Of a DNA stretch of 64,000 nucleotides, positions 11,204 to 59,527 are shown one piece after another. The stretch lies in NCBI GenBank assembly GCA_963924555.1, contig OZ004583.1, forward strand, positions 5,923,501 to 5,987,500. Reading direction: 5' to 3'. This stretch comes from Crambe crambe. Lineage: Eukaryota; Porifera; Demospongiae; Poecilosclerida; Crambeidae. The translations under genes were made by a program, and so were the position numbers. Every line of letters begins with the position of its first letter. Positions within the stretch are counted from its first letter, which is position 1. A model generated the notes under the pieces. That model was not told the DNA's origin and made no database searches. It worked only from the letters and a program-made list of their open reading frames with translations.

Positions 11204-11281
<78 letters not shown>

Positions 11282-20200: not shown

Positions 20201-23200
20201 TTAAGTTCGTATTGTGTAGCATTTTATTTTCAACTTTTTTGTGGATCTTAAAATATGAAAATGGAAATTAAAACAAATACTCAAATCTTCCTACCAGTGC
20301 CACCTGGCTGGGTACTGATACTAATTGTCAGTACTGAATCTGCAGTTGATTAAGTTTTAAGTTTTCTTGTGACTGTTAATTGCTCAGACTTGCCATTTTC
20401 ATTCTGGGTGCACATTATTTAAAGTACTGTGCAGCAATTAGCTGGATTGATATTTGATACAAATGTAGTCTATAGTCAGAGCGGCAAGAAAACCAGAACA
20501 CACAAACACATTTGTATGAATATAGCCTGCTGCATAAGGGGTAGGTGCCAAGATTTGTTAAAATACTAGATGGTCAATCTGCAAAAGTTGTACAGTGGAA
20601 CCTCCAATAAAGGACCCTCCAAGAAAAGGACAACCTCCCAACAAAGGATGCTCTTTTGGGCCCCTTTCCCATAGCATTAGTACATTTTTAACCTCCGAGA
20701 AAAGGATAGCCTCTCTGCAAAAACAAAGTGGCTGATCCCAAAGTGTCCTTTACTCGGAGGTTCCACTGTAATGAAAATTGAGCTCCTCCATTACAAATTA
20801 CTATGTAGTATCTATAGGTGGGCATTAATATAAGGGGTCATGATGGCAAAATAAAGTTATCTTGGCAATGGACTCTTCCAGATGATCATCACCCTGACAT
20901 GCTTCAAACAATGTTCAAACTTATGCAACTTTCTCAGGACTTCAAGCTAAAGTCAGGTCACACACATCAGGTCACACACAGAGAGACCTGAACTCTGGGC
21001 TATAATAATATCAGCTAACAATACAGTCATGCATGATGATCATACCTTGTGGTGGCTCAGCAAACTTTCGGATGTTATCAGCAATATACTGTTGTTCATC
21101 TTCTATTAGATTGTGAGCCCAAATAAGTCTCCTCCATGAAGAAGGTGCTCCCTTTCCTTCTAGCCAGGCATTGAGAACCAATTCAACACTAGATGCAGGA
21201 GCATCTTCCACTGCTAGCAATTCTTTCAATGATGCTGCCTCTATCCCCAGTATTTGTGGGATGTACTTGGTGATGTTAGGTAGTGTCAACTGTGGGACTG
21301 CATGGGAACACAAAATAGTAGAACACATGATCACTACATGATCCAGTCAGAACATAATACCAGACAGTTCACCATTGCAGTGCATACCATGGTTAGTACA
21401 TCACTGCTCACTAAACATAGGGATAGTACATTACTACACACTGTACTTCACTCCACACCATATAGGAATAGTACTTCAGGATTTTATGTGGGGGGAGGAA
21501 TTATAGGGAGGTTTGTGAGGTTATAGGGGGGCAGGAAGTCTTGATGTCACTATTATTTTAGACCTTGGTTACATGTGATTTGTGTATGTAATATTAGCAA
21601 GTTTAACTTTGATGTGTGTACACTGAAAGTATGTGCAACACATTTACATAGTTCTCTTGATACACACCCCTAAGGAAGATATGGGATCATAACTGCATGA
21701 CAAGGAGATGCTGAACAACCTGAACACTTTAGCTAATATCTGTCTTCTATTGTTGTTGGAATAGAAAGACAGACCACAGATGAAGATAGAGAAAAACTTG
21801 ATTAAACTTATTAATGAAAATAGCTAGTGATAGAACTAACAGATAATGATTTAGAAAAAGATGTATGGATGTATGGAATAAAAGGAAGACTAGTTGTGTG
21901 ATTTTACAAGGGGGCAGCTGAGGGGAGAAACCCTCTTGAAAGAAACCCAGATCACTGCACACCATATAGGGATAGTACATCACTACACACCATATAGGGA
22001 TAGTACATCATTACACACCATATAGGGATAGTACATCACTACACACCATATAGGGATAGTACATCACTGCACACCATATATGGATAGTACATCACTGCAC
22101 ACCATATAGGGATAGTACATCACTACACATCATATAGGGATAGTACATCACTGCACACCATATAGGGATAGTACATCACTACACATCATATAGGGATAGT
22201 ACATCACTACACACCATATAGGGATAGTACATCACTGCACACCATATAGGGATAGTACATCACTGCACACCATATAGGGATAGTACATCACTACACACCA
22301 TATAGGGATAGTACACCATAATATAGGGAGACTCTCAGCTCTTCAAATTATGAGCATTTCAGGTGACTCTTAATAAGTGATAATTTTATAAACCACTTAC
22401 TCTGATCAGGATGGACTGGTGTCACCACTTGGAACACACGAGGAGGACGCACTTGGAACACAGGAGAAGAAGGACCCACTTGGAACACAGGAGGAGGAGG
22501 AGGAACTGATAAGACCTATACATAATTATGGTAAAACAGTAACTTGAATCCTACGTATCTTTCCTAAATCCTTTCATGAAAAATGCATCAAAACCTTCAA
22601 TTGAGTTATTGACTGACCTCTGGTCTGAAGGGATTGGTCCACTGAGGGTTTTGCTGGAAGAGGGAGGAGTCAACTGGAGAGGAAAAGGAAGTGGGTGCAG
22701 ACCTCACTAATTGGGTGGGTGGAGTCTGGAGTGGGAGCTGTGAGAATGGGTTGAGGTGGGTGGGATGAAACGGGCCCTGTGGGTGTGGTGGAATGGACAG
22801 GGGTTGAGTGGAGAATGAGGAAGGTGGTGAGGTGAGTGAAGGAGGCATACATCCAGTGAAGTGAGTAGGTTGGAGGGACACCTGTAACAAGTTTAATTGA
22901 AGTCATGTGTCATACATAGACCACCAAGTTATAACGAATATTCTATTTCTAATTTCACAAGTGAGCGCAAAACATTTCTTCTAGGTTAAGTAGGGATAGC
23001 CTAAAATCTAGCTGGGCTGTATAATGTACTGCAGCCTCATATGAAAACAATCCCTACTTTTACATCCACTGCCTATAGCTAGCTATGGCAGTTGTAAAAG
23101 TAGGGATTGTTTTCATACGAGGATGGAGTACATTATACAGCCCAGCTAGATTTTAGGCTATCCCTACTTAACCTTTTTATTTAGAAGAAATTTTTTGTGA

Positions 23201-26200: not shown

Positions 26201-29187
26201 TAGAGGGAGTTCACTCATGCTACAAAAACCTTTGTAACATCAACATGATCCAGTTTATTAGGAGTATGAAAATACATGTACTTACAAAGACTCAGTCATG
26301 GCCAACACAATGTATGGGACTTCAGAATGTTACCTATCTACATCTAAGCATACATAGCATAGAATTGTCTGTCTTTAAGTCTTTGTAGTAGTGTATGCTC
26401 CAAGAACCTTTGCTACATGAATATGATCTGATTACTGGGAGTGTGCAAGCAAATATAAGCAGAACTCTATAAAAGTTTAGCATAATATATGGGACTTAGG
26501 GAATTTCCCCACTTCCATATACATGGTCACACTTAGCCTCGTTCCCAGGCCCATTAAAATAGGGCCTGGTATACACTGATTGCGCATGCGCAAGATTAAA
26601 TGGTTATAATGACAGCACGTGGTTATTATGACGTAGAAATCAATACTATTAGTATTACTAGGCTTGTCAGAGTATCCCTCCACTATAGATCTTCAGGATC
26701 ACAAAAGAAAGTACTGTCAGTGCAGAGGTTCGAGTCTGAAGCAAGAGATACCGTTTTGAGATGAGATGACTACCGATTTTATGCCTCTCAGTCTCTTCCT
26801 AAGAGTTTAAACCTGTCAACCATCAGAGCGATGAGTGGAAACACTACCAGCACAGCGCTGGTCTTCAAACTGCCAGCCAGGAAGCAAGCCAGCCAGCCAG
26901 GAAGAGAAGCACTTGGTAGCACAGACTCTTCCCAACATCTGGTTTGCGAGACTACCTGTGGGGAGACACACACGAAGACATCTTTACTCTCGTAAATGGT
27001 TGAGTGGACAGGTGCTGTTCTTCTTTCAAAGCAAGAATGCTCCAAAAAACGATCTTAAGAAATTAACCACACCCATTATTCTTACGTAGTAGTAAAGGTA
27101 TACGGATGACATTACGATGTAGTATACGGAGGCCCTGGAATGCCGGGGCATTTTAGCGCATGCGCAATCAGTGTATACCAGGCCCCTCCCTCCCTCCCCC
27201 CCCCCCCCCAAAAAAAAAGCCTGGAAACGAGGCTAGGTCACACTGAGAAGCTTATCAATCTCACAAGTATGCTATTGGTCAAATTGAAGTGGGTAGAACA
27301 TGAAATCAGGGCTATAGCTGCAGAGACCATATGGATGACCTACCTGAGGTGGGTGTGGAGGATGCATGTGAGCCGTAGGAGGTTGTAATGTAGGATCGAG
27401 TGTTGGATGAAAACCAGGAGTAAGAAGTCCAGGAGGAGGGTCTGGAAGGATACAAAGTAAACAAAAAGAGGTTGTCTCTATGAGAACTTGTCTACAACCA
27501 AAATATCAAGTTTGCCTTTTTAACTTTGACCTTACTATGTATATGGCCTCTCATAGAGTAGTAAAAACCACACCCAATAGCTACACCCACCTGTTCAATT
27601 TCAATTGGGTCTATCATTTAAAGTCATTCAATACTTGATGACCATTACCTAATATCATTGATCAACCTTAGCAGCTTTAATGGAGACTCCGACCCTGTTA
27701 CTACTTACTGTTTGGCATTGAAAGTGTTGGAGGAGACGAGTGTAGTGAAGCAGAGACTCCTTCAGGGAGACAAGTGGGAGTGAGGGTTTTTGATAATGGG
27801 ACTGGAGGGTTATAAGACATATGAGAAGTCAAGGGGACAATATCACAATTATTCATTAAGAAATTGCAAAAATAAATGATTGGGTGATAATAAGGTGGCA
27901 GTACAACTTTTATCTTTGGCATAGTAATAGAACAATCCCTACACTTTGTTTAGCTACATTTTGCTCAATCTTAGGCCAGGCAAAGTTGATTCCTTGTTCC
28001 GCATCACATATTTTCAGTGAGGGAGGGAGGGAGGTCACAAATTGAGCCCAATAAAACCTGTATTTTGTGGGGGTGTGGCTCCTTTAGTGAGGGAGGTGTC
28101 CAGAAATACATTTTTTAGGTCTCACCTTCAAGCTTCGGTTTTTTAGTACAAGGTAGGTCTTCACTCACTTCAGTTCCTGAATCAGGAAATGATAATAAAT
28201 TGGTAACTAGGTATGAAACCACCACACCAGAAGAAGATTGCTGTGATACTTATGACATCATCAATATCGTATAGCACTCTATTTAAGAGGCACTAATATT
28301 TCAAGGATAGCTATTTCTAAATATTTCGTGGAATGATTTTAAACCCCACCTACAAAATGAAAATAATAATTATAGTGTGCACACATAGAATTGAATGCTT
28401 TTGTAGTTCCCCTTGATAGTAGCTGCTGTCTCACTCCCAGAATTTGCCAGCGTAGTGAACGTTCTACTGCTCTTCTTCCTATTTCAGCCTTTTTATTTGA
28501 CGAAAATCTAGTGTATGGCCCTCTGGTGGTAGATCCCTGCTTCAAAACGGCAGAGATTTTTGAGTTTGCTGCTTCAATAGAAGAGGACGAACTGTCAGTG
28601 ACATTTTACCACTAGGATCTAGATTTGTAGGTTGCTTTGAAGGATTTTTAGAGCTAAAATAACGACAGAGCATGACAGCTGCATGGCTACTTAGGCAAAA
28701 TTATTCGAGGGCATAATTTTTGTTTTTTGAGCAAAATCCATGAAAACCTCGAAAATAAAGAACCTCAAAAGTAAAGCGCTATACGGTAGATTCACTGTAT
28801 AGTTAACTAATAGGATGAGGTTATGTGATCTCTCTGACTATCCATCATTGTTCCATTCATAGCCTATGGAGTATTGTAGTCACAAACTACATTCCACAAC
28901 CAGCTGATACCTTTATCAGCTCCTCTCATAGTCTTTGGTCCAGGGTTCAATTCTACATCCCCAGAGAACAACAGTATACCTATAAGGAACAATACTGGCA
29001 TGTTGGAGTGGGACTTTCTCACTACCCTCCTCCAAAGTCGAGTCTTCCTCAAGCAGTTACTCAAGAGGTGTTTGACAGCTGTACGATCATAATTAACTTG
29101 CCACTCCCCCTCATCACACCATTGCCACAGCAGAGACACAATCAAAGCAAACCGAAAGAATAATACGCTGCCAGAACAAGATGACAT
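10137..29187 (-). CDS. Large 2A / death-domain / ROC-COR (ROCO) protein gene, copy 2 (17 exons)
   Basis: Seventeen exons join without a phase break to 1,736 codons: 29187-28911, 28176-28126, 27801-27709, 27441-27344, 24993-24763, 22881-22618, 22515-22401, 21297-21046, 19995-19720, 19501-19250, 18687-18490, 17854-17555, 17333-17079, 13493-11316, 10762-10508, 10316-10261 and 10196-10137. Order of parts: 2A-like leader (residues 1-92), acidic and proline-rich linkers (93-376), six death-like domains (377-887), ROC GTPase plus COR-like region (888-1613), a canonical death domain (about 1614-1698), and a tail ending in QPPPAKITKLD. Death-domain and ROCO proteins are cytosolic signalling scaffolds in cell death, stress and innate sensing; a receptor or adaptor role here is inference. 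Every junction from the leader to the ROC exon allows in-frame exon exchange. Exons could be missing or alternative, but the fully closed frame argues the model is near correct. Confidence 0.75.
10508..10762 (-). other. Exon encoding the canonical C-terminal death domain
   Basis: A phase 1-1 exon of 85 codons. It opens MKDHFQVTEYLSDLTKEEL and contains LLKLGSALGLLWPNLKK and the death-domain hallmark PTWASLIKALEKI ending GVAGKIKKC. Acceptor TTACATAG and donor GTGAGTAT flank it. This is the most typical death domain in the protein and probably mediates homotypic contacts with other death-domain partners. Confidence 0.85.
11207..11278. repeat. (GA)n microsatellite
   Basis: About 36 uninterrupted GA units lie in the intron between the ROC-COR exon and the last death-domain exon. 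The apparent Ser-Leu-rich reading frame on the minus strand is an artefact of this repeat. Confidence 0.95.
11316..13493 (-). other. ROC-COR exon of copy 2
   Basis: One phase 1-1 exon of 726 codons. G1/P-loop GSPGSGKSSL (about residues 927-936 of the protein), G3 DTGGQVEF and G4 VGTHKDLLG are clear, so GTP binding is likely. Between G1 and G3 lies a Ser/Thr/Pro-rich insert with one copy of a ~52-residue unit (APSTASESASPVQ ... SEMLTSDG). After the G domain, a winged-helix COR-like region begins near YPISYLQFSLDFENMKKS and runs past LLRFLHTRIGRIKYFPV and REPQVLFNKVTDLI. A cysteine-rich end (CCESC, CIKCDSC) may bind metal. The exon is entered after TTGTAG and left at AAAG|GTCAGC. No leucine-rich repeats or kinase domain were found, unlike LRRK-type proteins. 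Confidence 0.85.
13965..14215. mobile_element. Foldback MITE
   Basis: GGCCCCAAATTTAGCTGGAC and CCAAGCCGTATGG on the left are mirrored on the right by CCATACGGCTTGGTTTGATA and ATGCAGTCATGGCCC. It starts with GTGCAAAAAATTTCTTCTAA just upstream, the same terminal string as the elements near 22,970 and 30,670, so it belongs to that family. Confidence 0.65.
14213..14455 (-). pseudogene. Probable Ty3/gypsy integrase C-terminal remnant
   Basis: The frame contains NQQLMQKQLHDSKKPLCTSA followed by VGDLVYLKWKVTG. This resembles the end of the integrase core and the GDLV-type C-terminal motif of Ty3/gypsy retrotransposons. Only about 80 codons remain. Confidence 0.45.
14461..14790 (+). pseudogene. Transposase-like N-terminal fragment (pogo/DDE type, tentative)
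   Basis: A 109-codon frame contains KVLPWRKQGRPLLLGEHLYHRV followed by LYLKKVRDK in two steps. The phrase GRPLLLGE-x-L-x-x-x-V-x-x-Y is one I associate with the DNA-binding N-terminus of pogo/jerky-like transposases of marine invertebrates. The frame ends soon after, so it is at most a fragment. Confidence 0.35.
17079..18687 (-). other. Death-like cassette, second copy (A'-B'-C', three exons)
   Basis: Exons 18687-18490 (66 codons), 17854-17555 (100 codons) and 17333-17079 (85 codons) are each phase 1-1. A' ends SIRNFAEPVTG and has TTWRELISIMDRI. B' opens DPTMTVENLTTVLM and has PTWKAIATSALYG. C' has VLEEVEDWEKVARNLPLSDF and DWNDLAWALRCTGYDALAED. Each is closest to the exon in the same position of the upstream cassette at 19,250-21,297. 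A' has lost about 18 codons from its middle. These are helical death-fold-like domains by their W, TW/SW..L and hydrophobic spacing. Confidence 0.75.
19250..21297 (-). other. Death-like cassette, first copy (A-B-C, three exons)
   Basis: Exons 21297-21046 (84 codons), 19995-19720 (92 codons) and 19501-19250 (84 codons) are each phase 1-1. A: LNAWLEGKGAPSSWRRLIWA, ending NIRKFAEPPQG. B: STLSVENVAAVLMQIEGDV, with CPSWKLLSLLLYEVGE. C: LKEVEDWKTISKYMGIADH, with VTWGNVVTALSHCGEEIAAE. The order and signatures are repeated by the next three exons, so a three-exon block was duplicated. Confidence 0.75.
20591..20770. mobile_element. 180-bp MITE with TA-flanked inverted ends
   Basis: The ends TACAGTGGAACCTCC and GGAGGTTCCACTGTA are exact inverted copies starting at a TA, the target of Tc1/mariner/pogo elements. 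The interior is made of diverged repeats of the AAAGGACA type. It lies in an intron of the ROCO gene. Confidence 0.8.
21950..22320. repeat. 28-bp minisatellite (~13 units)
   Basis: The unit is CACCATATAGGGATAGTACA plus TCACTGCA, with minor T/C and A/G variants. Scattered single units lie at 21,400-21,480. It is tandem with no spacers, so it is not a CRISPR array. It sits in the intron between the PPVFQV exon and the first death-like exon. Confidence 0.9.
22401..22515 (-). other. Proline-rich exon with PVFQV repeats
   Basis: A phase 0-1 exon of 38 codons. It reads VLSVPPPPPVFQVG, then SSPVFQVRPPRVFQV, then VTPVHPDQ. Three copies of VFQV in a proline context suggest a flexible binding linker. 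Acceptor ATGTATAG and donor GTAAGTGG flank it. Confidence 0.65.
22618..22881 (-). other. Proline-rich exon, PTHFTG type (copy b)
   Basis: A phase 0-0 exon of 88 codons. It opens VSLQPTHFTGCMPPSLTS, continues PPSSFSTQPLSIPPHPQGP and ends QWTNPFRPE before donor GTCAGTCA. It is a duplicate of the exon at 24,763-24,993. The flanking intron ends are also alike. Confidence 0.65.
22965..23205. mobile_element. Foldback MITE of the GCAAAAAATTTCTTCTA family
   Basis: The left arm GTAGGGATAGCCTAAAATCT with CCCTACTTTTAC is mirrored by AGATTTTAGGCTATCCCTAC on the right. Outer ends are GAGCGCAAAACATTTCTTCT and AGAAGAAATTTTTTGTG. The same end appears at about 13,955 and 30,670. It is about 240 bp and non-coding. 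Confidence 0.75.
24763..24993 (-). other. Proline-rich exon, PTHFTG type (copy a)
   Basis: A phase 0-0 exon of 77 codons. It opens ISFQPTHFTGRMPPSYSS, contains TQHPSLPPHPQGPTPPTY and ends PPFIRKE before donor GTCAGTCA. It precedes its duplicate (22,618-22,881) in the transcript. Both carry QLVR and QWTNP. Confidence 0.65.
25940..26025. repeat. 24-bp tandem repeat (three to four units)
   Basis: The unit AATAGGGAACCAGGTGTCTA plus TATA is repeated three times, with a partial fourth. A single unit also appears at about 23,385. Confidence 0.85.
26534..27235. mobile_element. 702-bp non-autonomous element with RecQ-gene remnant
   Basis: It begins TAGCCTCGTTCCCAGGC and ends GCCTGGAAACGAGGCTA, flanked by the direct repeat GGTCACACT at 26,525-26,533 and 27,236-27,244. 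Read on the minus strand, the interior preserves fragments matching the RecQ gene at 60,055: KDVFV, then VFPLIALMVDRF, then RGIKSVVISSQNG in other frames, plus GTTGGGAAGAGTCTGTGCTA (compare the P-loop GKSLCY). It is therefore an internally deleted derivative of a RecQ-bearing transposon. Inner inverted strings TGATTGCGCATGCGC and GCGCATGCGCAATCA lie near both ends. Confidence 0.85.
27344..27801 (-). other. Two proline-rich exons of the large gene
   Basis: Exon 27801-27709 (phase 1-1) reads PLSKTLTPTCLPEGV and SASLHSSPPTLSMPN. Exon 27441-27344 (phase 1-0) reads PPPGLLTPGFHPTLDPTLQ and PPTAHMHPPHPPQ. The second is the counterpart of the copy 1 exon at 1600-1655. A pyrimidine-rich acceptor precedes the first. 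Confidence 0.6.
28911..29187 (-). other. First coding exon of copy 2 with 2A-like leader
   Basis: Ninety-two codons from Met at 29,187 to donor AAAG|GTATCA. A hydrophobic N-terminus (LFFRFALIVSLLW) is followed by a basic segment (LRKTRLWRRVVRK), then VLFLIGILLFSG leading into DVELNPGP (residues 77-84, nucleotides 28,936-28,959). In sea urchin immune receptors a comparable hydrophobic 2A leader is known to allow dual targeting of the downstream protein; that analogy is inference. NRF-1-like motifs (TGCGCACGTGCA, GCATGCGCA) lie 40-65 bp upstream. Confidence 0.8.
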
Positions 29188-32027
29188 GTTCGTGGCATTA
29201 GAATTAGGATATGCTTGCAGTAACTGCGCACGTGCAGAATCTGAGCATGCGCAAAAATAGCGGGACTTTAAAAATAAAGTGTATGTTGTAGTAATAATAT
29301 GTTGATGGAAACATAATACTTCAAAAATGACCGATGTCCGCCTGTTATTTTTAGCTCTGCATACCACTCAGGTTACAGGTATTATGGGGAAGAGTCTGAC
29401 TAGTGAGACTAATTTGCCTGACTAATGCACAAAACGCTGCTACAGTGAGAGGTGCCGGTAAGCACTACTGGCAGCCCGCAACAATGACGTATGAGCAGAG
29501 ATGCATATGGAACAAGGACACTTGAAATGAAATGACAATGGGTCGTCTGATGAGAAGTTCAAAAAGAAGTAAGACCAGAGAACAGATATTTTCCTAATGG
29601 TGACTAGATTCACATAGGTAGTTGTACAAAACATTATCCTCGCTTCATGAAACTCGTGTTGCAATGTTCGAGAATTTAGTGAGACTACTAAAGCTGGGCT
29701 GTTCTTGATCAGAACGCTAGCTTTCATTTCTAAATAATGAACACCTCATGGGCAGATCATGAACTTGAGCATTACTTACCATTCAAAGTGTACCAGCCGT
29801 CCATAGCTAATAGGTACCTAGACTAGCTTAGTTCTGACCTCTGAAGAAATGCTTTTTGTTGAGAACTTCAAGAATTCGAGAGTCATAATAACTAAGTTTT
29901 TACACATGCACGCGTTATGCTTAATAGCTACTTTGTAGAGCTGACTCTACTGAGGAAGCAGCTTTTTATCTGAGTGAATTAGATGCTAACACACTGCACA
30001 AAATGCTACACATTCAATCATCATGACATGGAACAAAGCTATAGTGCGGCCCAATTTTGAGAACAAGAAACCATGAAAAAGTGTGTGCTTCCATGTTTAG
30101 TCATTCAGCCTCCAAAATTCTCCTGCATGATAAGAATGTGCATAAAATACACATAGCAATGTTTTCTTAGAAAATCCAACTTTATTTTATATTAGTCCTA
30201 TGGAAGGTCATAGGTCATCCCTACATACGTAGAGAGTGCTATCGCACTCTCTGATATCAGTTACATATATATGATGCGCAGTGATGCGCATCGAGCACGT
30301 GCATTAGCAGCTCTAGCTCTCTAGCTAGCTAGCCAACATAACTTCAAGCTCTACTACAGTACTAAAGACAAATAGACAGGCTCAGGCTCGCAGTCACTAC
30401 GCAGTAATGCTACACCGTGAAGAGAGTGCTGATGCTTCTTGGCCGTCTTTGTCAACAAATCAAGCCCATGCAGAGAAGACAAAAACAACAAAGACAATGT
30501 ACACAAACTAGGTGATCGTTAGAAGTGCCAAAGAGAGAACCATGTTGAAGGAGAATCTAATGAAAGAACACATACTTCAATCAAGCTATGCGTGAGAATC
30601 ATTCAAAATGGCAGTTTGAAAGCATTGAACAGCAAGAATACTAGCTGTGTAAATACCAACCTTATAATGAGCGCAAAAAATTTCTTCTAAATCAAAAGTG
30701 AAGTAGTAGGGATAGCCATAAAATTCAGCGCTACATTCCTATCACTCCTAGCCCTCCTAATTTTAATAACCACGCCTCCCAACTCTTCACTCCCCCTTCA
30801 GCAATAAGTAACCACTACCCGTACCCATCACCAAACTCAAGAATCACAGCAATAATATTATTACAAAATTACTATTCCTACTTCACTCCTAAGGAGGCCT
30901 AGGAGTTTTTTTATACTTTTTTTACTTTTAGCAAAGATTTTAAACAAAATTTGTGTAGTTGGAGGTGCACACACTGGCATGATAAAGTGAGCAGACTAGC
31001 TATACGTACAGCCATGTAGGATGAGCATCTGTACTGAGGAGTGGGGGGGGGGGGGGCTAGGGCTAATATATGCAGGCTTGCATTGATACATTTTGAGGCC
31101 ATCCCTTTTTGCACTCACTATTTCCATTCTTTTTCTTTGTAATTTAGCTATAGCTATGACAATTCACTGAACACTTTCAAGGTATTTTTGTTGCCTGTTG
31201 TCTTGAGGGAGGAGAGTATGACCACCTTGAAGGAGTGACTGCAGCATAAAAGCTTTATTGTAGAATTCTGTCTGATCAGAATAACTAGCTAAACACATTT
31301 ATATAATGGCTGCTGAGATTTGGTTGTCTTGCTTGAGGGAGGAGAGTATGGGGGATGAGCATCTGCAGTGCAAATCAGCAGTGCTATAATGAAAAGCGCT
31401 GAAGTGCTAACCCTCTGTGCACACTATGTGTGTGTTTGTGGATATTGAGCAGAGATGTTTTAATCGATAAAGCATTCAATACTGTTGAGCTAGCTAGCAG
31501 TGTCTGTACTACAGACTCCACATTCTCATTTTGAATTATCGGATGTAAAAATATACTGCTTGGAGGACTGCACAGATATGATTAAGCATGCAGGTAATAC
31601 TGCAGCAGCTAGATAATGCATAAAGCCGTCGTAGACTTGTAACTAAAGATACTCCAGCTATCTGAGATTTATGCTGTTCTAATCAACTCACCTTGTAGTA
31701 TAGCCTAGATGAAGTAGGTAATGGTCGGCAGCACAGAGTGTACATTATATGGAGTATAGGCTATATAGTACACAGCTGGAATCGTGCCTTTTTTCTGGAG
31801 TAAAGCCTTTCTAGTTTTAATAAATAGCTGCAGCCAGTAAGTCTGTACACTGATCTGAAATTATTATTATGAACAAAAGTCAATTTTAGATGTCGTTTTT
31901 TTTTTCGTATGTTAGCGAATGAATTTTAGGTTTTTGAGCACTTTCCTCTCTTCTTTGTAGATGTAATGATTCACTGTAGCCTTCTGAAAACCTGTAGAGT
32001 AAGGGTAGAAGAGAAAGAAGAGTTTTT
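29188..32027. other. Intergenic region without supportable genes
   Basis: A short hairpin AGAGTGCTATCGCACTCT near 30,235 recurs in the same orientation near 32,706 together with flanking CTATGGA and CATCCCTAC strings, marking a dispersed repeat. GAGCGCAAAAAATTTCTTCT at about 30,670 is the end of a foldback family also seen at 13,955 and 22,970. The short ORFs here have no recognisable features. Confidence 0.5.
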
Positions 32028-33330: not shown

Positions 33331-34261
33331 AGTTGTCCCTATGCTTATTCAACTTGGGTCCTTTTGCTGGCTATAGTACTTACTGGTACTGGAGTAGTCA
33401 ATACTTTCATCAGTGCTACTGGTGCCAGATCCACCAGAGAAATATATAGAAATATTTTCCTTTTCTTAGACATAGCTACAGCTTCAAATACAAACTAGCT
33501 CCTACTGTCCATTGCCGGTTGGTTGTCAGGAAGGTTAGGGGAATAGGTGGATACAATTTGTCCTATGGTTTACACAACTGCATGGATTGTATAGGACACG
33601 AAAGGATCAGGTTTCTTGGGTCCTTGTAAGCCACTACCTATTTCTCATTCCTTACTGACAACCATCCTGAAATCTACAGTACTGTAGCTAGCTAGCTACA
33701 CATGCAAAAAAAAACAACCTCACAATGTAAGTGCATAGGTCAAACCAATGTTTTCATAAGAGCTATTCAAGTAAATGTTCTTGTGTAAACTCAATCAGGG
33801 CAGACAGCCATGTATTTCATATGCTAGGGGAAACATTGTGCTTTGTGGTAAGCTTTCATGTATATAGCTGCCTGCCAATCAACAGCAAAATCTTCTCCTG
33901 GAGTTGAGCATAAATGAATATCAGCTCAAAAAGCCTATAGGAATACTAGCTCGCTCGCTGTGACTTAAATGTTGCACATTGCCCTAGTCTTAAACACTAA
34001 ACCGTAATTCATACCTGAATTCAATAAATGCTCCATCTTGAGAGCATACAAAAAGATGACTGCTATCAGTCCTGATCATTCTCCCAGATCTGACAAAAAA
34101 TAAAAGCTTGTAAATTTTAGGTTAGTAAAATAATTTGCCTACCTCTAGACAAGCAACAAAAAAATGATCACAGGCCAGGCCTGTCAATTCTGAAGGTAGC
34201 ATCGAACCAGTCTCCTTTTTACCTTTCACAGTAGCTAGCTAGCTAGCTAGCGAGTGCTAGT
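33331..34261. other. Intergenic stretch with a dispersed repeat
   Basis: No gene supported. The segment at about 33,855-33,990 (GCTGCCTGCCA, TATAGGAATACTAGCTCGCT, TTGCACATTGCCCTAG) is related to 44,625-44,790. Confidence 0.45.
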
Positions 34262-34341
34262 AGCTAATGCACGTGCTCGATACGCACCGCACCGCGGTGT
34301 ACCGCCGCGCCGCTCCGGCACCTGCACCGCGTACCGGGCCG

Positions 34342-34555
34342 TATGGAGCGCCATCGTGGACAATATTCGATATTCTATGAATCAGCGGTGTATAGGTACT
34401 GAAGGTCGATCTACTGATTCGATCATCTATCTAGATGAGCGGTGTATTGTTATTGAAGGTCGACCTGCTGATTCGATCGATGAGCGGTGTATAGGTACTG
34501 AAGGTCGATCTACTGATTCGATCATCTATCTATCTAGATGAGCGGTGTATAGCTA
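34342..34555. repeat. Left terminal inverted repeat with subterminal tandem units
   Basis: Three direct copies of a ~50-bp unit (GAGCGGTGTATAGGTACTGA, then AGGTCGATCTACTGATTC) follow TATGGAGCGCCATCGTGG. Such arrays are typical transposase binding regions. The inverse is at 39,615-39,853. Confidence 0.9.
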
Positions 34556-34683
34556 TAGTCGCGAAGGGCATAACTGACTCAATGCGCACGCGCACTAGGT
34601 CTATTTATTATTATGTCATCTTGTAAAAACACGTGGAGCGGAGCTTTAGATCATAGAGACCAAGTGTAGTGCAGTTGCTTGAT

Positions 34684-37551
34684 ATGGGGGAGGAAGGAGA
34701 TAAAATTCAGCAGGCCATTACCATTTTAACCGCAGTGGCTCAATCCCAACCTCAATCCCAACAATCTCAACCTCAATCTCAACCTCAAGGCAAGCTTATT
34801 TTATTGCTATTCTTTTTTGTTCTTAGACCTTGGCATTAAATTTTCTTGTCAAAAACTGTCCACAAATTGGAGGGACATGTATAGAGAGATAATTGTTTAA
34901 AAAGTGATCAAAGCAAGTAGATATCTTCAATTTTTAACGTTGACCATAGCTTGGGGAGGCATCATAACTTGAGGGAGGGAGAGAAGGCCTGAGAAACCAT
35001 TATTTAATGAACATCTTTTATCCAAAGGTTCAAGGCAGAGGGCTACTGGTTCGTGCAACCGAGCCCTTGCTGCTGTTCGGTCTATACGGGAGAGGCTAGG
35101 GTCAACTAGTGAAGTGGCAAGAGAGCAGAGGTCAAACTTTTCTCCATATGGGTCATCTAATAAAGGAAAGAAACCCCGTAGCTGGACCACGAAATTTTTT
35201 TGCCTTAGCAACCGTGATTCTTTAAAAGTTCCTTGTGGTCTCCAAGAAAGAGATGATTTAGTTCAGGCTGGCTTGGGAGAGAAGAAAGTTGTAATCCCAG
35301 ACATTGATTGCAGCCAGAAAGAGTTTTATGATGTTCTAATTAAAACTTTTCCGAAACTACAAGGGATCGGTGGATTTGATTTGTTACGCTGCATTCCTAA
35401 TAGTAAAGAACTTGAACCACTTTCAACCACTGTATCCCAGTCACCAAAGTTATTAAAATCAGTTCTTGGTAATGGTCGAATCTTTATCCGTCCCATCCAA
35501 AGAAATATTGATCTGGATATCGATGAGGGCTTAGCTTCATCAGCTGATGTGGTATGAAGATGTACAAGTTATTTCATGATTAATAGTCTGGCTTAGTGTC
35601 TACCCTTATAAGCTGTTGTTTAGTACTGACTTATTTTTAATTGTAGATTAAGGAAAAGTGCATCCATTGTGGGACTGAAATTCCAATACGGGATTTAAGA
35701 AAACATGTTCGTGGCTGTAAATTTGAGAGGTAAAATGACCTGCTTCATAAGCTGAAGTTCATTAAGTTTGTTGCTTATTATAGAATGAAATTTGATTCAT
35801 CAAGTGATTCTGACTTTGAACCTATCTCAGCCAAACAGTCTTGTACCAGGCCAGTGCGTGTTGTATTGTCATCTTCTTCGGATGAGGTATACTTTAATTT
35901 TAGTGAGGACAATCATGGTGTGTTTAGTAGCTCCTTACAACTAGAATGATGTAACCGAAACAGAAAATGCAATTCTAGACCATGTGATTGTGATATCATC
36001 GGAAACAAAGTATATTAATTTTGTTGTTTTGTTTTGTTTACTTATCATAATGGGCAATATCTAATAGTGATCAACCATCTCCAGTCATAGCTCCCAGGAC
36101 TCTCAGAGACATAGTGAAAAAGTTATCACAAAGTATTTCAGACAAGGAGGTTGTTCTTCCAGTGCGAAGGGATCACGTACTTGATGATGCACTACTTAGT
36201 GTCAAGCGCAAGAGCTTCCCACATAGTTATTTTTTGAAGGTTCAAGTGCTGGCTTGTACTTTCACTTTCCTATTAATATTTGAATACCTACTTAGGTTGC
36301 TTTCATTGGGGAGGCTGCTCAGGATGGTGGAGGGCCTGGAAGGGAATTTTGGAGCCTACTTTCAAAGGAAATTAAAAATTCCCTTTTTGAAGGTGTGGAC
36401 AATTGCTGTGTATTGAGGCATGATGCAGTGGGATTGCAGGTAACTACTGATTAATAAATTTTTGGAACATTGGTATTGATCAATATCACAGGCCAGGAAA
36501 TTTTTCTTTGTGGGTAATCTCATGGCAATGGGATTTGTTCAAGGCTGCAGTGGTTTTCCCTTCATGGCCCCTCCAGTATATGAATACTTATGTGGAAAAG
36601 ACATCTCTACTATCTGTGTGAAGAAAACAGATGTACCAAATTGTGAAGTTCAGCTTCTACTTAAAAAAGTACAGATATAGCTACGTACCACTCTGGGTTA
36701 CCCATTGATTTGGAGCTTACCATCCACAATGATTATTTCAAGAGTGCCCAACTGATATTCTAAATAATGCACAGTTAATCTAAGTGATGGGTTCTAATTT
36801 TTAGATTGAGGAAGCAGCAAATGATGGAGACCTTCAGAAGATTTGTTTACAAGATATCGATATGATTCTGGATGCTGGCTATTCAAAACCTATTACTACT
36901 ATTACATCTTTGGGGGTTGATGAGCTGGTATCAACATTGACGTGTCACTACACATTATATAAAAACAAAGCAGTTTTGGACCAGTTAAAAAGTGGATTAA
37001 ACATTCTAGGGGTATATGATGCCATGCACAGCCATTCCGATATCATTGAATCTTTTTTTGTGTGTGGGAAGCAACCACCCCTTACTGGAGGTAGGTATTA
37101 AAAATTATTGGCTTTAATATAAGAGTTTTAACATGACATGCAGCTGTGATCAAAGATCTTTTGCAAACAGTACATTACTCTGAGCCTGGTTCTTCACAAA
37201 GGATCAGAGAAGAAGCTACTTACATGCTATTTCTTGATTTTGTATATGATCTTGAAGGCAAGTCGTTTGTTTCATTGAATTGAGTATTTATGAGTGTTGT
37301 TTATGGTTACAGAGAATGAGGCCAATGGTGTTTCACTGGGACACTTGTTGAGTTTTTTTACAGGAGCCGATTATCCTCCACCAATGGGGTTTCATGTAAA
37401 ACCAGAGTTGCGGTTCAATGGTAGTAATGATTTTCCCACTGCATCAACATGTGCATTGCAGTTAACACTGCCAACAAAACACCAAGCTAGTCAATTTAAA
37501 CAAAAAATGATTTATGCTTTACTTAACCATGGTGGATTTGGGGCATTGTGA
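34684..37551 (+). CDS. HECT-type E3 ubiquitin-ligase-like protein carried by the transposon
   Basis: Eleven exons close in frame to 670 codons: 34684-34789, 35028-35551, 35647-35729, 35784-35886, 35945-36009, 36068-36239, 36296-36439, 36492-36668, 36805-37090, 37144-37257 and 37313-37551. Exon 1 is Gln/Ser/Pro-rich. Exon 3 has a C2HC finger (CIHCGTEIPIRDLRKHVRGC). The C-terminal half is a short HECT domain: FIGEAAQDGGGPGREFWSLL at the start, FFVGNLMAMGFVQG in the middle and, at the end, FFTGADYPPPMGF and PTASTCALQLTLP with the presumed catalytic Cys638, then GGFGAL. This resembles G2E3-like proteins of fish and invertebrates. The predicted role is ubiquitin transfer, perhaps affecting transposition or host proteins; that is inference. 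The introns after exon 1 and exon 10 start with GC instead of GT (AAG|GCAAG). An NRF-1-like ATGCGCACGCGCA lies about 95 bp upstream. Confidence 0.85.
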
Positions 37552-37699
37552 GTTATTTTGCCCCCCTACTGTTTCATTCATACTGACTTTATCTTTTTTT
37601 CCTCCCTCTCCTTCTTTTGTGTACATGTACACACACACAAGAACAAGTTTCTTAATGTATTGATGCAAAATTAAAAATATATATTGGGTATAATGTACT

Positions 37700-39500
37700 T
37701 TACATAGTAATGCTGGAAACAAATGCTCGCGTCATCATGTAAATAGAAATGCCAAGGTCATCACACTGTTCCAATGGATCCACAGATCGTTTCAGTTCAT
37801 CCATTTGTTGACATGTGAAAGGGCACACTGTGGCAGGAATCACAACACTCTCATCATTCTCAGTGTTCAGTGGTCCACTTAAGTCAATTCCATACAAATC
37901 CTGTGGAGATAGAAAAGTCATAATCCTCAGATATAAATAATTATTTACAATTACCATGGCATCATCAAGAACACCTTGCAGTGCTTCATCATCTCCTGAT
38001 CCTTGTGATAAACCTCTAATCCACAGCTGAAAAGGACTGCGGTTTTTTTCAGTACGTAAACGGTGGTGACTATATGATTGCTGAAATATGTTAAGTTGAT
38101 GATTTATTCGAGGAATAAATACATAGTGCAGAGAAAATAGATCACTATTACTTGATGGATTAAGCATTCCATTATCTTCAAGAGTATAAAATAGATGGTA
38201 AAACAGTGATGCACAGCCCATGTATAAGTCTCTCCATAAGCGCTCAATCCGCTGGTTGTGCACACTTTTACCCGTTATACAACTTCCTCTGCCAGGTCCC
38301 CTATCAGGATGATTGAGCATATACTCGGACACTCTTACATTCTCACCACCACGATCGCACCTGACCCTTGAAGGTAATCCAAATTGTTGCACAGCTTCAA
38401 TGAAGCAATTGAGTACAGTTTCTGCTTCATTATTAGTAGAAGCTCGGAGATACACAGGTAATCTTGAATACCCATCTATTCCACCATGGATAACGATACG
38501 CCATCTAATCAGTTTATGATAGCCATCTATGTGCCATAAACTGTTAGGCATACAAACATTGTAGCGTCTCCGATGAAGAACCCGTCTAAATCTTGTCTGT
38601 ACTCCTCTGGGATCAATCCTCAATAAGCTCTCTCTGACTCTGGAACGCTGAATCCGTATCCCCATTCCCCTTAAGAATCCAGCTAAAGATCTCCCTCCTG
38701 ATTCCGGGTGAGAATTCACGAACTGACTGGTAATGGCATCTAACTCTGCATCATCCATCTCTGTGTAGTTGGCTTCCTCTTGCAAACCATATTGAATTAT
38801 CCTTCTTCTGACTGTTTTAGGGGATACTTGCAATAAGTTAGCTATGTCTCGGGTTGAAAATTGTAGTTCTAATAGTGCTATGAGTTGCTCTTCACTAACT
38901 TGAATTTGAGGACGTCCCCTAATGTGACTACAATGATTTATGTCAATAACGAGCTGTATATCTCGAACTAAATCCACAATAGCCTCTACAAGTATGTCCC
39001 CATCTGGTTGAAGCAGCTCTAACACCACATCTCTTAGAAGAAGTTCTGCTTGCACTAGCAAACCATCAATATCCATTTCTATTGATAATAATTCCATATG
39101 ACAAATCAACTACTGTAGCAAAACCTATTATTCATATTGATTCTTACAATACAAGAAAGCCAAAAAACTATGAAGACATACACAACCCATACCAACCAAA
39201 TTAGATCATAATTCTTTTTGCCCTGAAATCATGTAATCATTTTGACTTTCTTTTTTTTTCTCTCTCTCTCTCTCTAAAATTTTCTGTACAAACCTTAATT
39301 TAAGAGTCGATATTCTGGTAGACAGCCTAATAAATTTAATCTACCACACCTTTTTCCATAGTATAAGTTTTCAAAACTTGAATTTGTCAACCACAAATTG
39401 ATAATGATAATCACGTACCTTCATCTGTATTACTAATAATGGATAGCATCCTTGTAATCACATCTTCTACTTCCACCACGAAATCTAGAACATTTTCCAT
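37700..39500 (-). CDS. Integrase-like DDE transposase
   Basis: The main frame (39109-37700) has a helix-turn-helix (LIALLELQFSTRDIANLLQ, then VSPKTVRRR) and an RNase H-like core. The acidic triad is Asp195 (WHIDGYHK), Asp252 (RCDRGGEN) and Glu289 (HNQRIERLWRD) in that frame's numbering. The last two are separated by 36 residues (DD36E). Proposed exons are 39500-39419 (MENVLDFVVEVEDVI...), 39054-37955 and 37900-37700; they join in phase to 460 codons. The 54-nt intron 37,901-37,954 is a multiple of three, so the frame also reads through it. The acceptor at 39,054 is weak; a start at an internal Met near 39,097 is the alternative. It should bind the inverted termini and cut and join the element. 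It ends about 150 bp from the HECT gene's stop. Confidence 0.85.
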
Positions 39501-39614
39501 AATACAACTAGCTACAAGGTTGATCACATGCTAATCACATGCTGATCACATGTCAATGGTGATATCCTGCGCATGCGCAATGCCTAGCGCGGCCAGCTAC
39601 GGCTGGCTACCTAT

Positions 39615-39853
39615 GAAGATAGATGATCGAATCAGTAGATCGACCTATACATCGCTCATCTAGATGATATCAGTAGATCGACCTTCAGTACCTTTACACC
39701 ACTCATCTAGATAGATGATCGAATCAGTAGGTCGACCTTCAATAACAATACACCGCTCATCTAGATAGATGATCGAATCAGTAGATCGACCTTCAGTACC
39801 TATACACCGCTGATTCGTAGAATATCGAATATTGTCCACGATGGCGCTCCATA
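39615..39853. repeat. Right terminal inverted repeat
   Basis: The inverse of the left terminus, including ATCGAATATTGTCCACGATG and GGCGCTCCATA, with three to four subterminal units (GATCGAATCAGTAGATCGAC). The units vary slightly (CAATAACAATACACCGC is the inverse of the left unit with ATTGTTATTG). Confidence 0.9.
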
Positions 39854-40205
39854 GTACCGTACCGGTACCGCGCGCGCATTAGCCTCTCTTTTCCTTTTTT
39901 TGGGGCGGGGGAAAAAGAGAGCCTGCATGGTATCCACTGTTTGCGCATGCGCCAGTTTTTCCCAGAAATCTGGGAATTAGGATATCACTCGGATATTTCC
40001 GCTACACGATCGTCATAATTAATGGGCGCGGTTGCACAACTAGTACAATGCTGCATGCTAGCTATAGTTTTGCTGCTGCATGCTCTACACACTGCCTACG
40101 ATGGGAAGGATACTTCTACCAAACTGGTTATAGAAAGATCTGTTCTACCAGACTCTCCCCTTCATAATGATGCTGGTGAAGCGTTGCTCTGACCATAGAT
40201 ATATG

Positions 40206-40663
40206 TAGTCTGGGCGAGCAGACCTTTCGACCTTTGGGGGGTGGGGCGGGAGGAAAAGAAAGGTCTGGAGACTCTTGACACTACTATTCCGTGTTCCGGA
40301 GGAATGTAATTAAAATCAATATCACATGGAAAGAATGCACGTGCGCCCGCGCGCTCACACCCACGCACCATAGGCATAGCTAGCTATAATTATCTAGCTC
40401 GAGCTCGATCGATCGATGAGAGATAAGTGTGTCTGGTAGATTTACCCATAGCTAGCAAAAGAAGAAGACCGCTTACTAGCTTCACGCATGTACTGTGCTC
40501 ATACATGCGCGCTTATTATTATCTGGTCATGTGACTACTCGAATCTGATTGGCCTATCGAAATTCCTGCAGCAGAGAACACAAAACCATGTCGAGTGTCT
40601 CCAGACCTTTCTTTTCCTCCCGCCCCACCCCCCAAAGGTCGAAAGGTCTGCTCGCCCAGACTA
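40206..40663. mobile_element. 458-bp MITE with ~68-bp near-perfect inverted repeats
   Basis: The left end TAGTCTGGGCGAGCAGACCT and GGGTGGGGCGGGAGGAAAAG is mirrored by CTTTTCCTCCCGCCCCACCC and AGGTCTGCTCGCCCAGACTA. The near-identity of the arms points to recent insertion. Flanks share AGATATA. No protein is encoded. Confidence 0.85.
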
Positions 40664-53400: not shown

Positions 53401-54648
53401 TGACCTTGTTAGCCACAGCATTGACCATGGATTGCTACATATAGTGGAGTCCATTTATTTAGCTACTGCCTACAATTCATTGCAGGTCCCTTCTCATCAG
53501 AGATCATGAATTTGTGTGCCAAGTGGCCAAACATGTGGTGGAGAAATTGGTCAAATACAGCGATACAGCTCAAGCCCCACGGCTGTTGGATGCTCTAAGC
53601 GTCCTTTGTGAGTGCAATGGAGTTCCTATCAAGAAGAACCAAGGTGATGATAAAAGTGCACAGTTTTATAGCTACTTAAGTTTTCCACACAAGAAAGAGG
53701 CAAGTGTTCCTGTTCCGAGAATAGGAAATGTCTTGGTATGTGATGCACTATTTAAGGGAGGGACGCTACCATAATCATATGAAAACTCTATTCAAAGTGA
53801 TTATTATTAGACACCAGTTTCATTTTCAATGTTTAGCAGCTTACAATTTTAATCATAGATATTAATGACGATGAAGATGTGAGTTGGAATAATTAACCTA
53901 CTAACTGTGTCAGCTATTGTAGCACAATAATTATGTGTAACACTAAAAGTGTCAGGAAATGACACTGATGAATGGCTTTTGGAAAAACATGTTATTCAAG
54001 CCATAGACTTTCACTCCATGAAAAGAACCACAAGGCACCACCATATAGGAATCTTATCATTAAATTTCAGCCACTTCTTCATACTTTAGCTCTTCATAAC
54101 TCATGTTTATAGCCTTGGGGCTCAAATATTATAGAGATAGTCCAACTATTATAGATCATTTATTGTGTTTTTTTTTTGTTTTTTTCCGGCTCTAATAAAA
54201 ATAGACCAAATACTGTCGCATCTCAGAGAAGTCTTTCAGGGAGAAGGAAAGCAGGTGAATATACTGTACATATGTAGCTAGGTAAGGAGTCATGGTACTC
54301 CCCCAGGTGTTAATACTTTCAGACTTGTGTAGAATATATATCTCATAGTTGTTTCCACATGCATAAGGTAAGGTGGGACAATTCTGATAATTTCAGTCGG
54401 CCTTGTCAAATGATGGAATTGCCCCACCTTTGTAAATGCCTCGCCTTACCTTATGTACTTGCTGAGCTAAATTTAGTTCATCCTCCTTTTTTTAATGAAG
54501 ATTTTCTATACACTTGATGTGGGAAGATACTCACACCCTAAGATGGACAGGAAGATGACCAAGCATGTGGACCAGGATGGATATGTAGTATCGAGATGGA
54601 CGATGATCGGTTGTATAGGACCGAAGGAACACCACTACTATATATAGT
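47402..54648 (+). CDS. Inositol-trisphosphate-receptor-like protein, N-terminal half only
   Basis: Eighteen exons join in phase up to 53,643 (792 codons): 47402-47550, 47638-47705, 47931-48021, 48454-48520, 48652-48816, 48986-49176, 49312-49408, 50673-51186, 51442-51539, 51694-51768, 51832-51910, 52087-52184, 52391-52441, 52613-52687, 52761-52922, 53050-53217, 53275-53345 and 53486-53643. The start (LRIGDTIMLYF, then FKILAENKYEAQARF) matches the suppressor domain of IP3 receptors. MIR-like parts follow (FYGHNIQLLHTLTKKYLA, GGGTVRLYHKRHQSYVVAEG). The RIH-type helical domain has MAKNKQKLLRNLK, FKVISKYLEGKSSK and LLIRDHEFVCQVAKHVVEKL ending LLDALSVLCECNGVPIKKNQ. The beta-side IP3-contact string RTTGR was not found. 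Later exons (20-nt 53,859-53,878; 54,205-54,254; last frame to TAG at 54,648) are uncertain. No transmembrane pore is present before the next gene, so a soluble, channel-less protein is suggested. Confidence 0.75.
50128..50326. mobile_element. 199-bp hAT-type MITE
   Basis: The ends CAGTGGTGGATCCAGGA and TCCTAGATCCACCACTG are inverted and resemble widespread hAT termini. The interior has GGGGGGGCACAT and AAAGGGGGGGCATGTG in inverted-like positions. It lies in an intron of the IP3-receptor-like gene, next to a C run at about 49,997-50,018. Confidence 0.75.
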
Positions 54649-55125
54649 TCTTGATACCACTAGCTATTAATTAGTTAAGTTTAAAATATAATCATATTCA
54701 TATACAAATAATTGCATTCCTTTAAAACTACAATGAACCGAGTTCGACACTATAAAAACTGCCCTTGAGAATACGAAGGTGCTTATGGAGCTCAGGGTAG
54801 TCTTGCTCTACTGATCATTAATTAGTTTAATGCCCTGATGGCTGGTAGTTTCCCTGTTTTAAAAACCTCATGGTCAAAACTTGAAAGCATAATATTATGG
54901 ATGCCATAGTCTAAGAGAGGGTTTCCATTTGCCACTTCTTCACTATTAGCTGTGTAGCTTCATGTTAGAGATGTGTAGGATGTCTGCCTTTGTTAACATG
55001 ACAGCATTAGGTATAAATTGTAAAAGCGCATGAGGCAAATAATGCATGACATAATTGGTTACAATAACTTCAAGTGAGTGAACTACATGTAGTGCTAAAT
55101 AAGAAGATACAAGATACAGTAACAG

Positions 55126-58100
55126 CTAATGGTTAGGTGGAGGAGGTTCATGAATTCCAGACAAGTCAACTTTCCTCATCACACTATAAGAAGAAGAAGA
55201 AGAAGAAAAGATCACTAAAGTCAGAATAGGTTAGCTAGTTGTTTACTAGTCTCGTCCCCGTGCAGGCTCTAAAATTGTAGAGCCTGGGACGAGGCTAGTT
55301 GTTATACTTGAAAGAGGTCGGGTCGGAGGTTAAGAGAATAATAAAAATGAAGCAGTGGCTACCCTGTTGTACTAAAAATATCAAGATACAGCTGCTATCC
55401 ATAGCTACACAGCTAGCTAGTGATGACAGTAGCTATGTTACTCATACGTACTTTGATATTTATTGGCAATTTTTTCAAATAGTGCATGATCCAAGGGTTT
55501 CACAGCCTCTGCTAGTCTCCTCCAACTTGGTTTGCCATGCCTGTCATGGTCGTAGTTCAGTTTGAGCCACTGTAATAGAGCTTGGAAGAGACGCATGATG
55601 ACACCCTGATGATCACTTTCGATCCTCTCTAATACTGAATATCTGAGACCCAGCTTGGTGGCAAGAACCATCCAATTAGAGGATAGACTTTCAACAGAGT
55701 CAAATACGTCACCATGATCGTCAGTACCTACAAGGATAGATCAGCAATACTTAATATTAATCTTATTATGTGTATTATTCTTGTTTGCTAGCGAGTGCAA
55801 GGTTAACAGGAGGCTATAACAGGTCATTTTGCTTCGATGTTATAGGCTTTGCATGGCTCTTAAGAATTATATATTTATCTATTAGACTTTATGGAATAAT
55901 CACAAGCCACACTTTCATGACAGTGCTTAGATATTATTTGTTAATAGGTAAAACTTTTTGCATGGCTCTTAAGAATTCGCTACATTTTATTTACTAAGAT
56001 TAATGAATAGGCTTCATGGAACAATCACACTACCTATCATATAGTAATTTACCCAGAGTGGATGGGATTGCTGAAACTGGTTCACTGCATTCTGAAAGGG
56101 TGAGAGTTCATTAAAGCAAGCAAGCCTTGTATAAAATGTACATAGCTCCCTACACAAAGATCTTGGGGGGGGGGGGGAGATTTATAATTCTCCCTTCATT
56201 TGAAGGGGTCGTAATCCTTTATATGATCCCAATTCCCTCTTGCTACAGCAAAAATTCCTATAGAAATTGAGTGAGGTCGGTGTATAATACCTAGCTATAG
56301 CTATATCTATGGCTATTATAAATATTACCTATTTCCCCACATATTTCTTCATTCTCTGCATGAGATAAATAAACAAGTAATAATAGTTTTGAGTCTAAAA
56401 TTTTCATGTTACAGCTTAGTTATAGCTACTTGTACACTATTTTACATGTACAACTAATTTATATGTAACTAGCTAGTCAACCTTCATAAGATTCTCAATT
56501 TACAGGTAGCTAAATTTATAAAATATGTAACCAGTGCTGCAATATCGGATCTTGGTGAATGGAAATCATTTTTACTATGTCAGGTATATACAGAGCTACT
56601 GTGATTCATAAATCATTTTACTCACACATAGCTATACTGCATAACTAGCTCTACTCTGTGCACACCTTTTTGTTGGAACCAGACCAGGTTGTCTTCTGAT
56701 AAAATACAGATCTCGTGCTTTTTACTGCAGTACATGAAGTAGTCTGCTTGCACCCAGCCTCGATATTTGACACGATGATTCAACGAACACAATTTACACT
56801 TGCAACAAAAGTAATGTTGGGTCTTGCCACTGTCGTAGTGAAGATCTTTTACTGAAGAATGGATGCTCTTCTCGATAACTTTACGAACATCGTTACATAA
56901 ATAACTGATGTGAGCATGTCTTGATTTGTTTCCAGATGGATGTAGTATTACTTGCAAATGGGATGCAAAGAATTTAAGAGTCACTCGATCTTCATAGCAA
57001 CCGACACGGAATGATACTTGGTCCCTGAATATGAAATCTGGAAGAAGTTCCCATTTGAGCCAGCTTTTGAGAGTAGTAGTGAGCAAGGTGTTGATTAAAA
57101 CACCGAATATCCCCTTAGGGCAATGATTACATTCAAACTCAATGTAGAGTGTGGGGATACTGGATATTTCGTCAGGAGTTTGCAACATCTGGACATGATT
57201 AAGAACACATGGGATGAAATACCGGTCTTCTTTATCTCTTGATGTGGTGATTTGGGATATGATACGGAGATGCACCAGTAATTGCAAGAATGAATTCGGA
57301 TCGATATCATCCTGTACTTTAATGACTGTTTTAAAAACTGAAGCTGAAATGATGCCGCTGTATTTGAAATCTGCAAATTCTCGACGGCAAAGTCGGTTAG
57401 AAGAAAAAGTCTCCACTATGAGATCTGTGACTTTATTGAAAAGCACTTGAGGTTCTCGCACGACAATGTTATGCAACCCTTTCACAGGAAAATACTTGAT
57501 CCTTCCAATTCGGGTGTGAAGAAATCGCAGTAAGTGCTTCACTCGGTCTTTACCGATACCATACTGAGCAGCTAAAGCCACACATTCATCAAAAGAAACA
57601 ATGCTCTTCTTCATATTCTCCAAATCAAGGCTGAACTGCAAGTAACTGATTGGATAGTCAATGGCAAACTCATCTCGACCTATCACTATTTCACTGACTC
57701 GTGATCGGATGCATTCAAAGTCTTTTTCGCCCTCATCGTAGTTATCAACAGTAAACATCAGCCTATTAGAACGTTGGTCAGCATATTGAACTAAATCTTT
57801 ATATCCATGCCTATTGATCAATTCATTCAATTGTCGATTAATCTCACAAATTTTCTCTTCAGCATTGGAACCAAGCAGATCCTTGTGTGTGCCTACTATA
57901 AAAACAAGAGGTTGGTGGGTCTTAACGTCACTTTGTCCAGTTATATCCATGGCATCAACACTAGCAAGGCATTGCAGTAGAGCATCCTCTGTGCTGATGG
58001 AAGATATGTATGAATTAGTTATTGTGCCATCCTTTTTTCGATACTCTATTTTAAATTTGCTGCGAATGTCTTGATCAATGCGAAAGAGGAAGAAGAATAT

Positions 58101-59440: not shown

Positions 59441-59527
59441 CTACAAGTATAATAAGAAAACATTATTCATAATTACAAAATGTTTCTGGACTGATAACAT
59501 ACTGATATGAAAAACTACTTGAATAAT

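Follow-up and report, generated by a model that had tools for sequence, protein, structure and literature searches.

The window considered here, a 64,000-nucleotide stretch of the genome of the sponge Crambe crambe (contig OZ004583.1, positions 5,923,501 to 5,987,500), contains a DNA transposon of 5,512 bp at window positions 34342-39853 that encloses two genes, one encoding an integrase-like transposase and the other a protein with a HECT ubiquitin-ligase domain. We have high confidence in this anatomy. The best overall explanation, which we consider rather probable, is that of a recent-looking and structurally complete two-gene transposon of the IS3EU kind, carrying a ligase that, more tentatively, would act on host proteins. 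The original prediction, made from the letters of the window, had proposed a HECT-carrying DNA transposon that appeared intact, and for this copy the proposal is borne out by the termini, the open reading frames (ORFs), the splice sites and homology.

The bounds of the element were set by its inverted terminal arms, which an inverted-repeat search found to be 137 nt long and 99% complementary, with 2 differences (Table 1). The long inverted termini with subterminal units that had been predicted are present, and the element first placed at 34262-39880 stands, its limits being tightened to those given above. The 18-base terminus has exactly two perfect copies in the window, one at each end of the element; when up to 3 mismatches are allowed, for which 0.02 chance matches are expected, a third match (61186-61203, 3 mismatches) is found within a RecQ-like helicase ORF. 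On each side, four subterminal cores spaced at 45-58 bp form an array that starts within the arm and runs inward, and we infer that these arrays are putative binding sites for the transposase. Between the termini there is no ORF of at least 150 aa beyond the transposase and HECT genes, as expected from the prediction of exactly two convergent genes, and 148 bp separate their stop codons. The HECT start codon lies about 130 bp inward of the left array; the transposase starts about 120 bp inward of the right array if a tentative first exon is real, and about 520 bp otherwise.

The transposase ORF matches Pfam rva_4 with an E-value of 2.4e-82 and gives weak matches below the cut-off to rve (2e-7) and, near the N-terminus, to HTH_Tnp_ISL3 (0.0045). 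Its catalytic triad consists of D191, D248 and E285, the last two being separated by 36 residues (DD36E spacing). Among NCBIfam profiles the best match is IS481 (4.8e-14), followed by IS3 (4.5e-11), both below the cut-off; IS3/IS481 transposases from five plasmid records match at 25-29% identity (tblastn), and the PHROGs matches are to general transposase families only (2.6e-12). The zinc-binding integrase (HHCC) domain was not listed among the Pfam matches at E <=0.01. The tentative upstream exon betters the alignment to the start of a homologous protein from another sponge (contig L004, see below), an improvement equalled by 54 of 1000 shuffles and hence weak support.

The HECT gene (34684..37551, forward strand) was modelled with 11 exons, totalling 2013 nt including the stop codon. 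Eight of its introns are GT-AG and two, introns 1 and 10, are GC-AG; seven of the ten measure 52-58 bp. Using a codon score trained on the other long ORFs of the window, the transposase among them, we found that the modelled frame tops the three forward frames in 10 of the 11 exons, exon 5 being the exception, and that a reverse frame is slightly above the modelled frame in exons 4 and 5. When segments were drawn at random from the window, none of 2000 sets reached the total score of the model. The predicted structure of 11 exons closing at 670 codons is retained, together with the DD36E transposase, and the claim that both frames are intact agrees with the absence of internal stops from the transposase and from the HECT model.

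The encoded protein matches the HECT domain PF00632 (E 1.8e-15), the match covering positions 35-304 of the 306 in the profile, and both lobes align to the E6AP sequence. Cys638 lies within FPTASTC, aligned to LPTSHTC of E6AP, and is also aligned to the corresponding residues of UBE3C and AREL1; the protein finishes in GGFGAL, compared with GFGML in E6AP, and keeps the Phe four residues from the end. We take the position of Cys638 to be that of the HECT catalytic residue, and assume that the Phe near the C-terminus matters for HECT activity. Judged by these retained residues, the protein is probably catalytic, and the predicted combination of a C2HC finger and a HECT-like domain with its active-site cysteine is recovered. 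The finger has the spacing C-x2-C-x11-H-x3-C, identical in the alignment to that of the RAD18 finger, but its matches to the RAD18-type UBZ and TRAFD1/XAF1 fingers are weak (PDB chains of TRAFD1/FLN29, E 0.008, and of RAD18, 0.14 to 0.15; Pfam, 0.0034, below the cut-off). No UBZ family was among the 6 Pfam matches listed for the finger at E <=10, a search in which filters drop most weak matches. The protein resembles the HECT E3 ligases E6AP/UBE3A, UBE3C, AREL1 and HUWE1 in its N- and C-lobe matches and active-site Cys, and E6AP in its GFGxL-type end; it differs from them in its distinct N-terminal region and C2HC finger, its low similarity and its location in a transposon. G2E3-like (G2/M phase-specific E3) proteins, which combine zinc fingers with a HECT domain, are numerous in fish and invertebrate genomes; none turned up here, where no test was aimed at them.

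Table 1. Features of the transposon and of its flanks (window positions).
Feature	Position	Strand	Remarks
Left flank GGGCCG	34336..34341	.	Candidate half of an imperfect 6-bp target-site duplication; 4/6 match to right flank
Left terminal inverted repeat, outer 137 nt	34342..34478	+	Starts TATGG; 99% complementary to right arm
Left subterminal array, 4 units	34372..34556	+	Cores 34386, 34440, 34485, 34543
HECT gene, exon 1	34684..34789	+	Start codon; GC donor
Exon 2	35028..35551	+	N-terminal region with conserved AGLGEK / GGFxLLxC; aligned parts of two sponge homologues are 42 and 47% identical
Exon 3, 83 nt	35647..35729	+	C2HC finger C-x2-C-x11-H-x3-C; length and phases as in L022
Exon 4	35784..35886	+	Serine/acidic linker
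Exon 5	35945..36009	+	Weakest coding support
Exon 6	36068..36239	+	HECT N-lobe begins, VRRDHVLDDAL; aligned to E6AP and HUWE1
Exon 7	36296..36439	+	HECT N-lobe
Exon 8	36492..36668	+	HECT N-lobe
Exon 9	36805..37090	+	HECT
Exon 10	37144..37257	+	HECT; GC donor
Exon 11	37313..37551	+	HECT C-lobe, Cys638, C-terminus GGFGAL, stop
Transposase ORF, 465 aa, without internal stop	39097..37703 (stop codon to 37700)	-	Pfam rva_4
Tentative upstream transposase exon	39419..39500	-	Open frame, GT..AG; joined to 39078 gives 485 aa
Right subterminal array, 4 units	39617..39830	-	Cores 39647 (variant), 39694 (variant), 39748, 39802
Right terminal inverted repeat, outer 137 nt	39717..39853	-	Finishes CCATA
Right flank GTACCG	39854..39859	.	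Candidate other half of the 6-bp target-site duplication; 4/6 match to left flank

Close relatives of both genes were found only in what appears to be the DNA of another sponge, in keeping with a demosponge source. A first pattern had given no match on genome contigs; a degenerate pattern then matched 7 of them, 4 in genomes without an rva_4 match and 3 sponge-like contigs in one metagenome-assembled genome (MAG) of a Cycloclasticus bacterium that lives in symbiosis with a poecilosclerid sponge. In a set of 61 genomes (this MAG and 60 relatives), only the MAG itself contains the transposase at E <=1e-20, and since its relatives lack it we read these contigs as contamination by the host sponge. 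The contigs L003, L004, L005 and L022-L027 resemble host sponge DNA, mostly with low ORF cover, introns and transposons of animal type. L003, L004 and L005 carry rva_4 transposases and L027 a fragment; the L004 protein shares 49% identity with that of the window along 357 residues and probably includes a further C-terminal exon, the score of which was equalled by none of 2000 shuffles. By protein search, HECT-family stretches were detected on five contigs of the same MAG, L022-L026, the match to L026 being weak (6.7e-4); a Pfam HECT search of this MAG was empty despite the presence of the family, which marks the limit of that search. Two sponge homologues share the N-terminal region of the HECT gene, and the C2HC pattern is kept in all three rows where it could be read (window, L022 and L023). 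L022 has an 83-nt exon with phases equal to those of exon 3, and L025 keeps the active-site Cys and ends in GGFGVV before its stop. This sharing of exon 3 length and phases, finger, Cys and C-terminus provides independent support for the gene model. In L022 and L024, stop codons lie inside a matched exon. Scans of viral contigs found no relative of the transposase or of the HECT protein, and phage records gave no match; a match to the terminus in one viral contig (L001) sits in a phage gene resembling a replicative helicase by sequence and was taken as chance.

According to the part of PMC10045372 available to us, complete IS3EU families have TA..TA termini throughout, usually 6-bp duplications, and no HHCC motif; fungal IS3EU, in the corresponding part of PMC12730594, have terminal inverted repeats of >30 bp and TAYGG..CCRTA ends, and those that bear TET encode an alpha-kinase running opposite to the transposase, TET/JBP lying between the two. 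The TATGG..CCATA ends of the window element fit both the general and the fungal form, its terminal inverted repeats exceed 30 bp, its IS3/IS481-related DDE transposase is without the HHCC motif, and its second gene is likewise opposite in orientation to the transposase. It differs from these elements in that the second gene encodes a C2HC-HECT ligase rather than an alpha-kinase or TET/JBP, and in its imperfect target duplication. The element fits the IS3EU kind in the features compared other than the duplication, a placement based on termini and profile matches. That it belongs to IS481EU, Ginger or GingerRoot instead appears improbable. The order of the sub-cut-off NCBIfam matches, IS481 ahead of IS3, would suit such an assignment, as would the description (PMC10045372, same part) of IS3EU and GingerRoot as one lineage, GingerRoot likewise having 6-bp duplications and mostly TA..TA ends. 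The same text gives IS481EU TNT..AYA or TGT..ACA ends, terminal inverted repeats mostly <50 bp and a single protein, and we excluded it on the TATGG..CCATA ends, the 137-bp repeats and the two genes; Ginger1 carries the HHCC domain that was not listed for this transposase.

Under the preferred reading, the transposase would bind the subterminal units, excise the element and insert it elsewhere, creating a short target duplication. The second protein would be a genuine HECT E3, transferring ubiquitin through Cys638, its C2HC finger would bind ubiquitin or a partner, and the ligase would act on host nuclear proteins that restrain the element. This last part, that the ligase acts on proteins holding back the expression or mobility of the element, we advance only tentatively; a host-directed role is preferred because fungal IS3EU carry other genes for modifying proteins or DNA, namely alpha-kinase and TET/JBP (PMC12730594, in the part available). 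As in the fungal TET/JBP transposons described there, IS3EU included, a DNA transposon would carry the gene of a host-modifying enzyme, with the difference that the enzyme is directed at DNA methylation in fungi and, to judge by sequence, at proteins through ubiquitin in the sponge.

Several observations weigh against this reading. The target duplication is the weakest structural point of the element: GGGCCG and GTACCG agree at 4 of 6 positions, a score equalled by 4.1% of 6-mer pairs drawn from the two 300-bp flanks. Given the TACCG repeats present in the flanks, the duplication may have been obscured by slippage or mutation, and an 11-bp version (9/11 match) was dropped because the flanks consist of these repeats. 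There is a single copy of the element in the window, and AlphaFold gave no confident structure, with a predicted local distance difference test (pLDDT) score of 41 for the transposase and 39 for exon 2 of the HECT gene alone, so that both models were discarded. In the other sponge, the five HECT contigs have no credible transposase match and the four transposase contigs no credible HECT match. Among the loci whose gene end is contained in the contig, both transposase loci lack the partner, no HECT being found past the transposase stop in L004 (518 bp) or L005 (1,942 bp), and so does the one HECT locus, L025, where there is no transposase within about 9.8 kb beyond the stop; L024 and L026, in which no gene end could be recognised, as well as L022, L023 and L003, which run off their contigs, were left out of this count. 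A search of nine sponge contigs found no termini of the window type, three 8-base motif matches (in L024, L025 and L027) and blastn-short matches of <=13 nt being taken as chance. The same gene pair, which the original prediction proposed to look for in other genomes, was looked for in these contigs and not found, and the view of the HECT gene as a standing cargo of the family is unsupported outside the window. The unlinked relatives speak against a universal transposase-HECT pair; they are diverged and some are broken, and the behaviour of the window's own family is outside their reach.

These unlinked HECT copies, together with the ten retained introns, which are host-gene-like, would suit an account in which a HECT gene of a multi-copy host family was captured between the termini as a passive passenger and is intact through recent capture or insertion, without a role in transposition. 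The compact layout, with two genes so closely apposed and no third ORF, argues in the other direction, as do the internal stops in two of the five relatives, which recall old mobile copies and which dead host copies would also show; we regard passive carriage as rather unlikely, yet not far-fetched. It is less probable again that the ligase targets the transposase, alone or in its complex with DNA, for removal, which would keep copy number down or free the ends for repair. Such self-regulation would agree with the convergent arrangement of the genes within one element; against it stands that the authors of PMC12730594, in their abstract, read the TET/JBP of other IS3EU as directed at host methylation. 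A chance nest, in which a HECT-bearing repeat or gene lies beside a transposon and the termini belong to one of them only, would explain why relatives of both genes occur unlinked elsewhere, but the 99% identical termini enclose both genes and, when the 25 longest of the 32 inverted pairs in 33900-40300 are considered, every one of at least 30 nt comes from the terminal arrays; we consider such a nest very improbable. The original prediction had suggested either manipulation of host protein turnover or regulation of the transposase as the role of the ligase; by a narrow margin we would favour the host-directed role, followed by passive carriage and then by self-regulation.

The window is eukaryotic in character, with intron-rich genes and ORFs of the Roc-COR, jacalin and DUF6589 types; Rfam (gathering scores) and a tRNA scan of the window gave no match. 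Two similar Roc-COR ORFs lie at 11296-13515 (-) and 56622-59462 (-), and in the latter five 156-bp units form a tandem repeat within the coding sequence (58287-59052). At 60016-61468 (+) and 61548-62621 (-), close to the end of the window, RecQ-like helicase ORFs (DEAD, Helicase_C, RecQ_Zn_bind) and a DUF6589 ORF meet tail to tail. This region might represent a transposon that carries a helicase, but the 25 inverted pairs listed, of 30 in 54000-64000, include no convincing long termini. At 59528-59665, a 138-bp stretch with 17-nt ends (TACAGTGGACTCCCTCT) that are 94% complementary resembles a small non-autonomous transposon, presumably of the pogo/Tigger kind. The ORF at 28864-29367 (-), with no Pfam match at E <=0.01, contains GDVELNPGP, which we take to be a 2A-like peptide motif, and a 28-bp minisatellite of 13 copies with 95% matches occupies 21951-22315. 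On L025, which we read as sponge DNA in the symbiont MAG, positions 11126-11827 (-) encode a RAG1 importin-binding domain (9.4e-11).

Among the matches listed for the open-licence literature, no title or abstract start described a HECT gene borne by a transposon, a scope outside which lie Repbase and the subscription papers (including the GingerRoot report), where a prior description is possible. The word HECT is absent from the transposon papers PMC10045372, PMC12730594 and PMC9587614. Enzymes borne by transposons and aimed at host DNA methylation have already been published, namely TET/JBP in fungi (PMC12730594, as seen in part). If a transposon bears a HECT ligase that looks complete, this idea of host-modifying enzymes would carry over to protein turnover, and the element would offer a defined and testable two-gene system. 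It would also be a caution that part of the HECT gene expansions annotated in animals could be mobile. More speculatively, and with a probability that we put on the low side, there may be an animal IS3EU lineage in which a ubiquitin ligase is the standing second gene and removes restraining host proteins, much of the multi-copy HECT family of sponges, and perhaps of other animals, being transposon-borne and not part of the host's own gene set.

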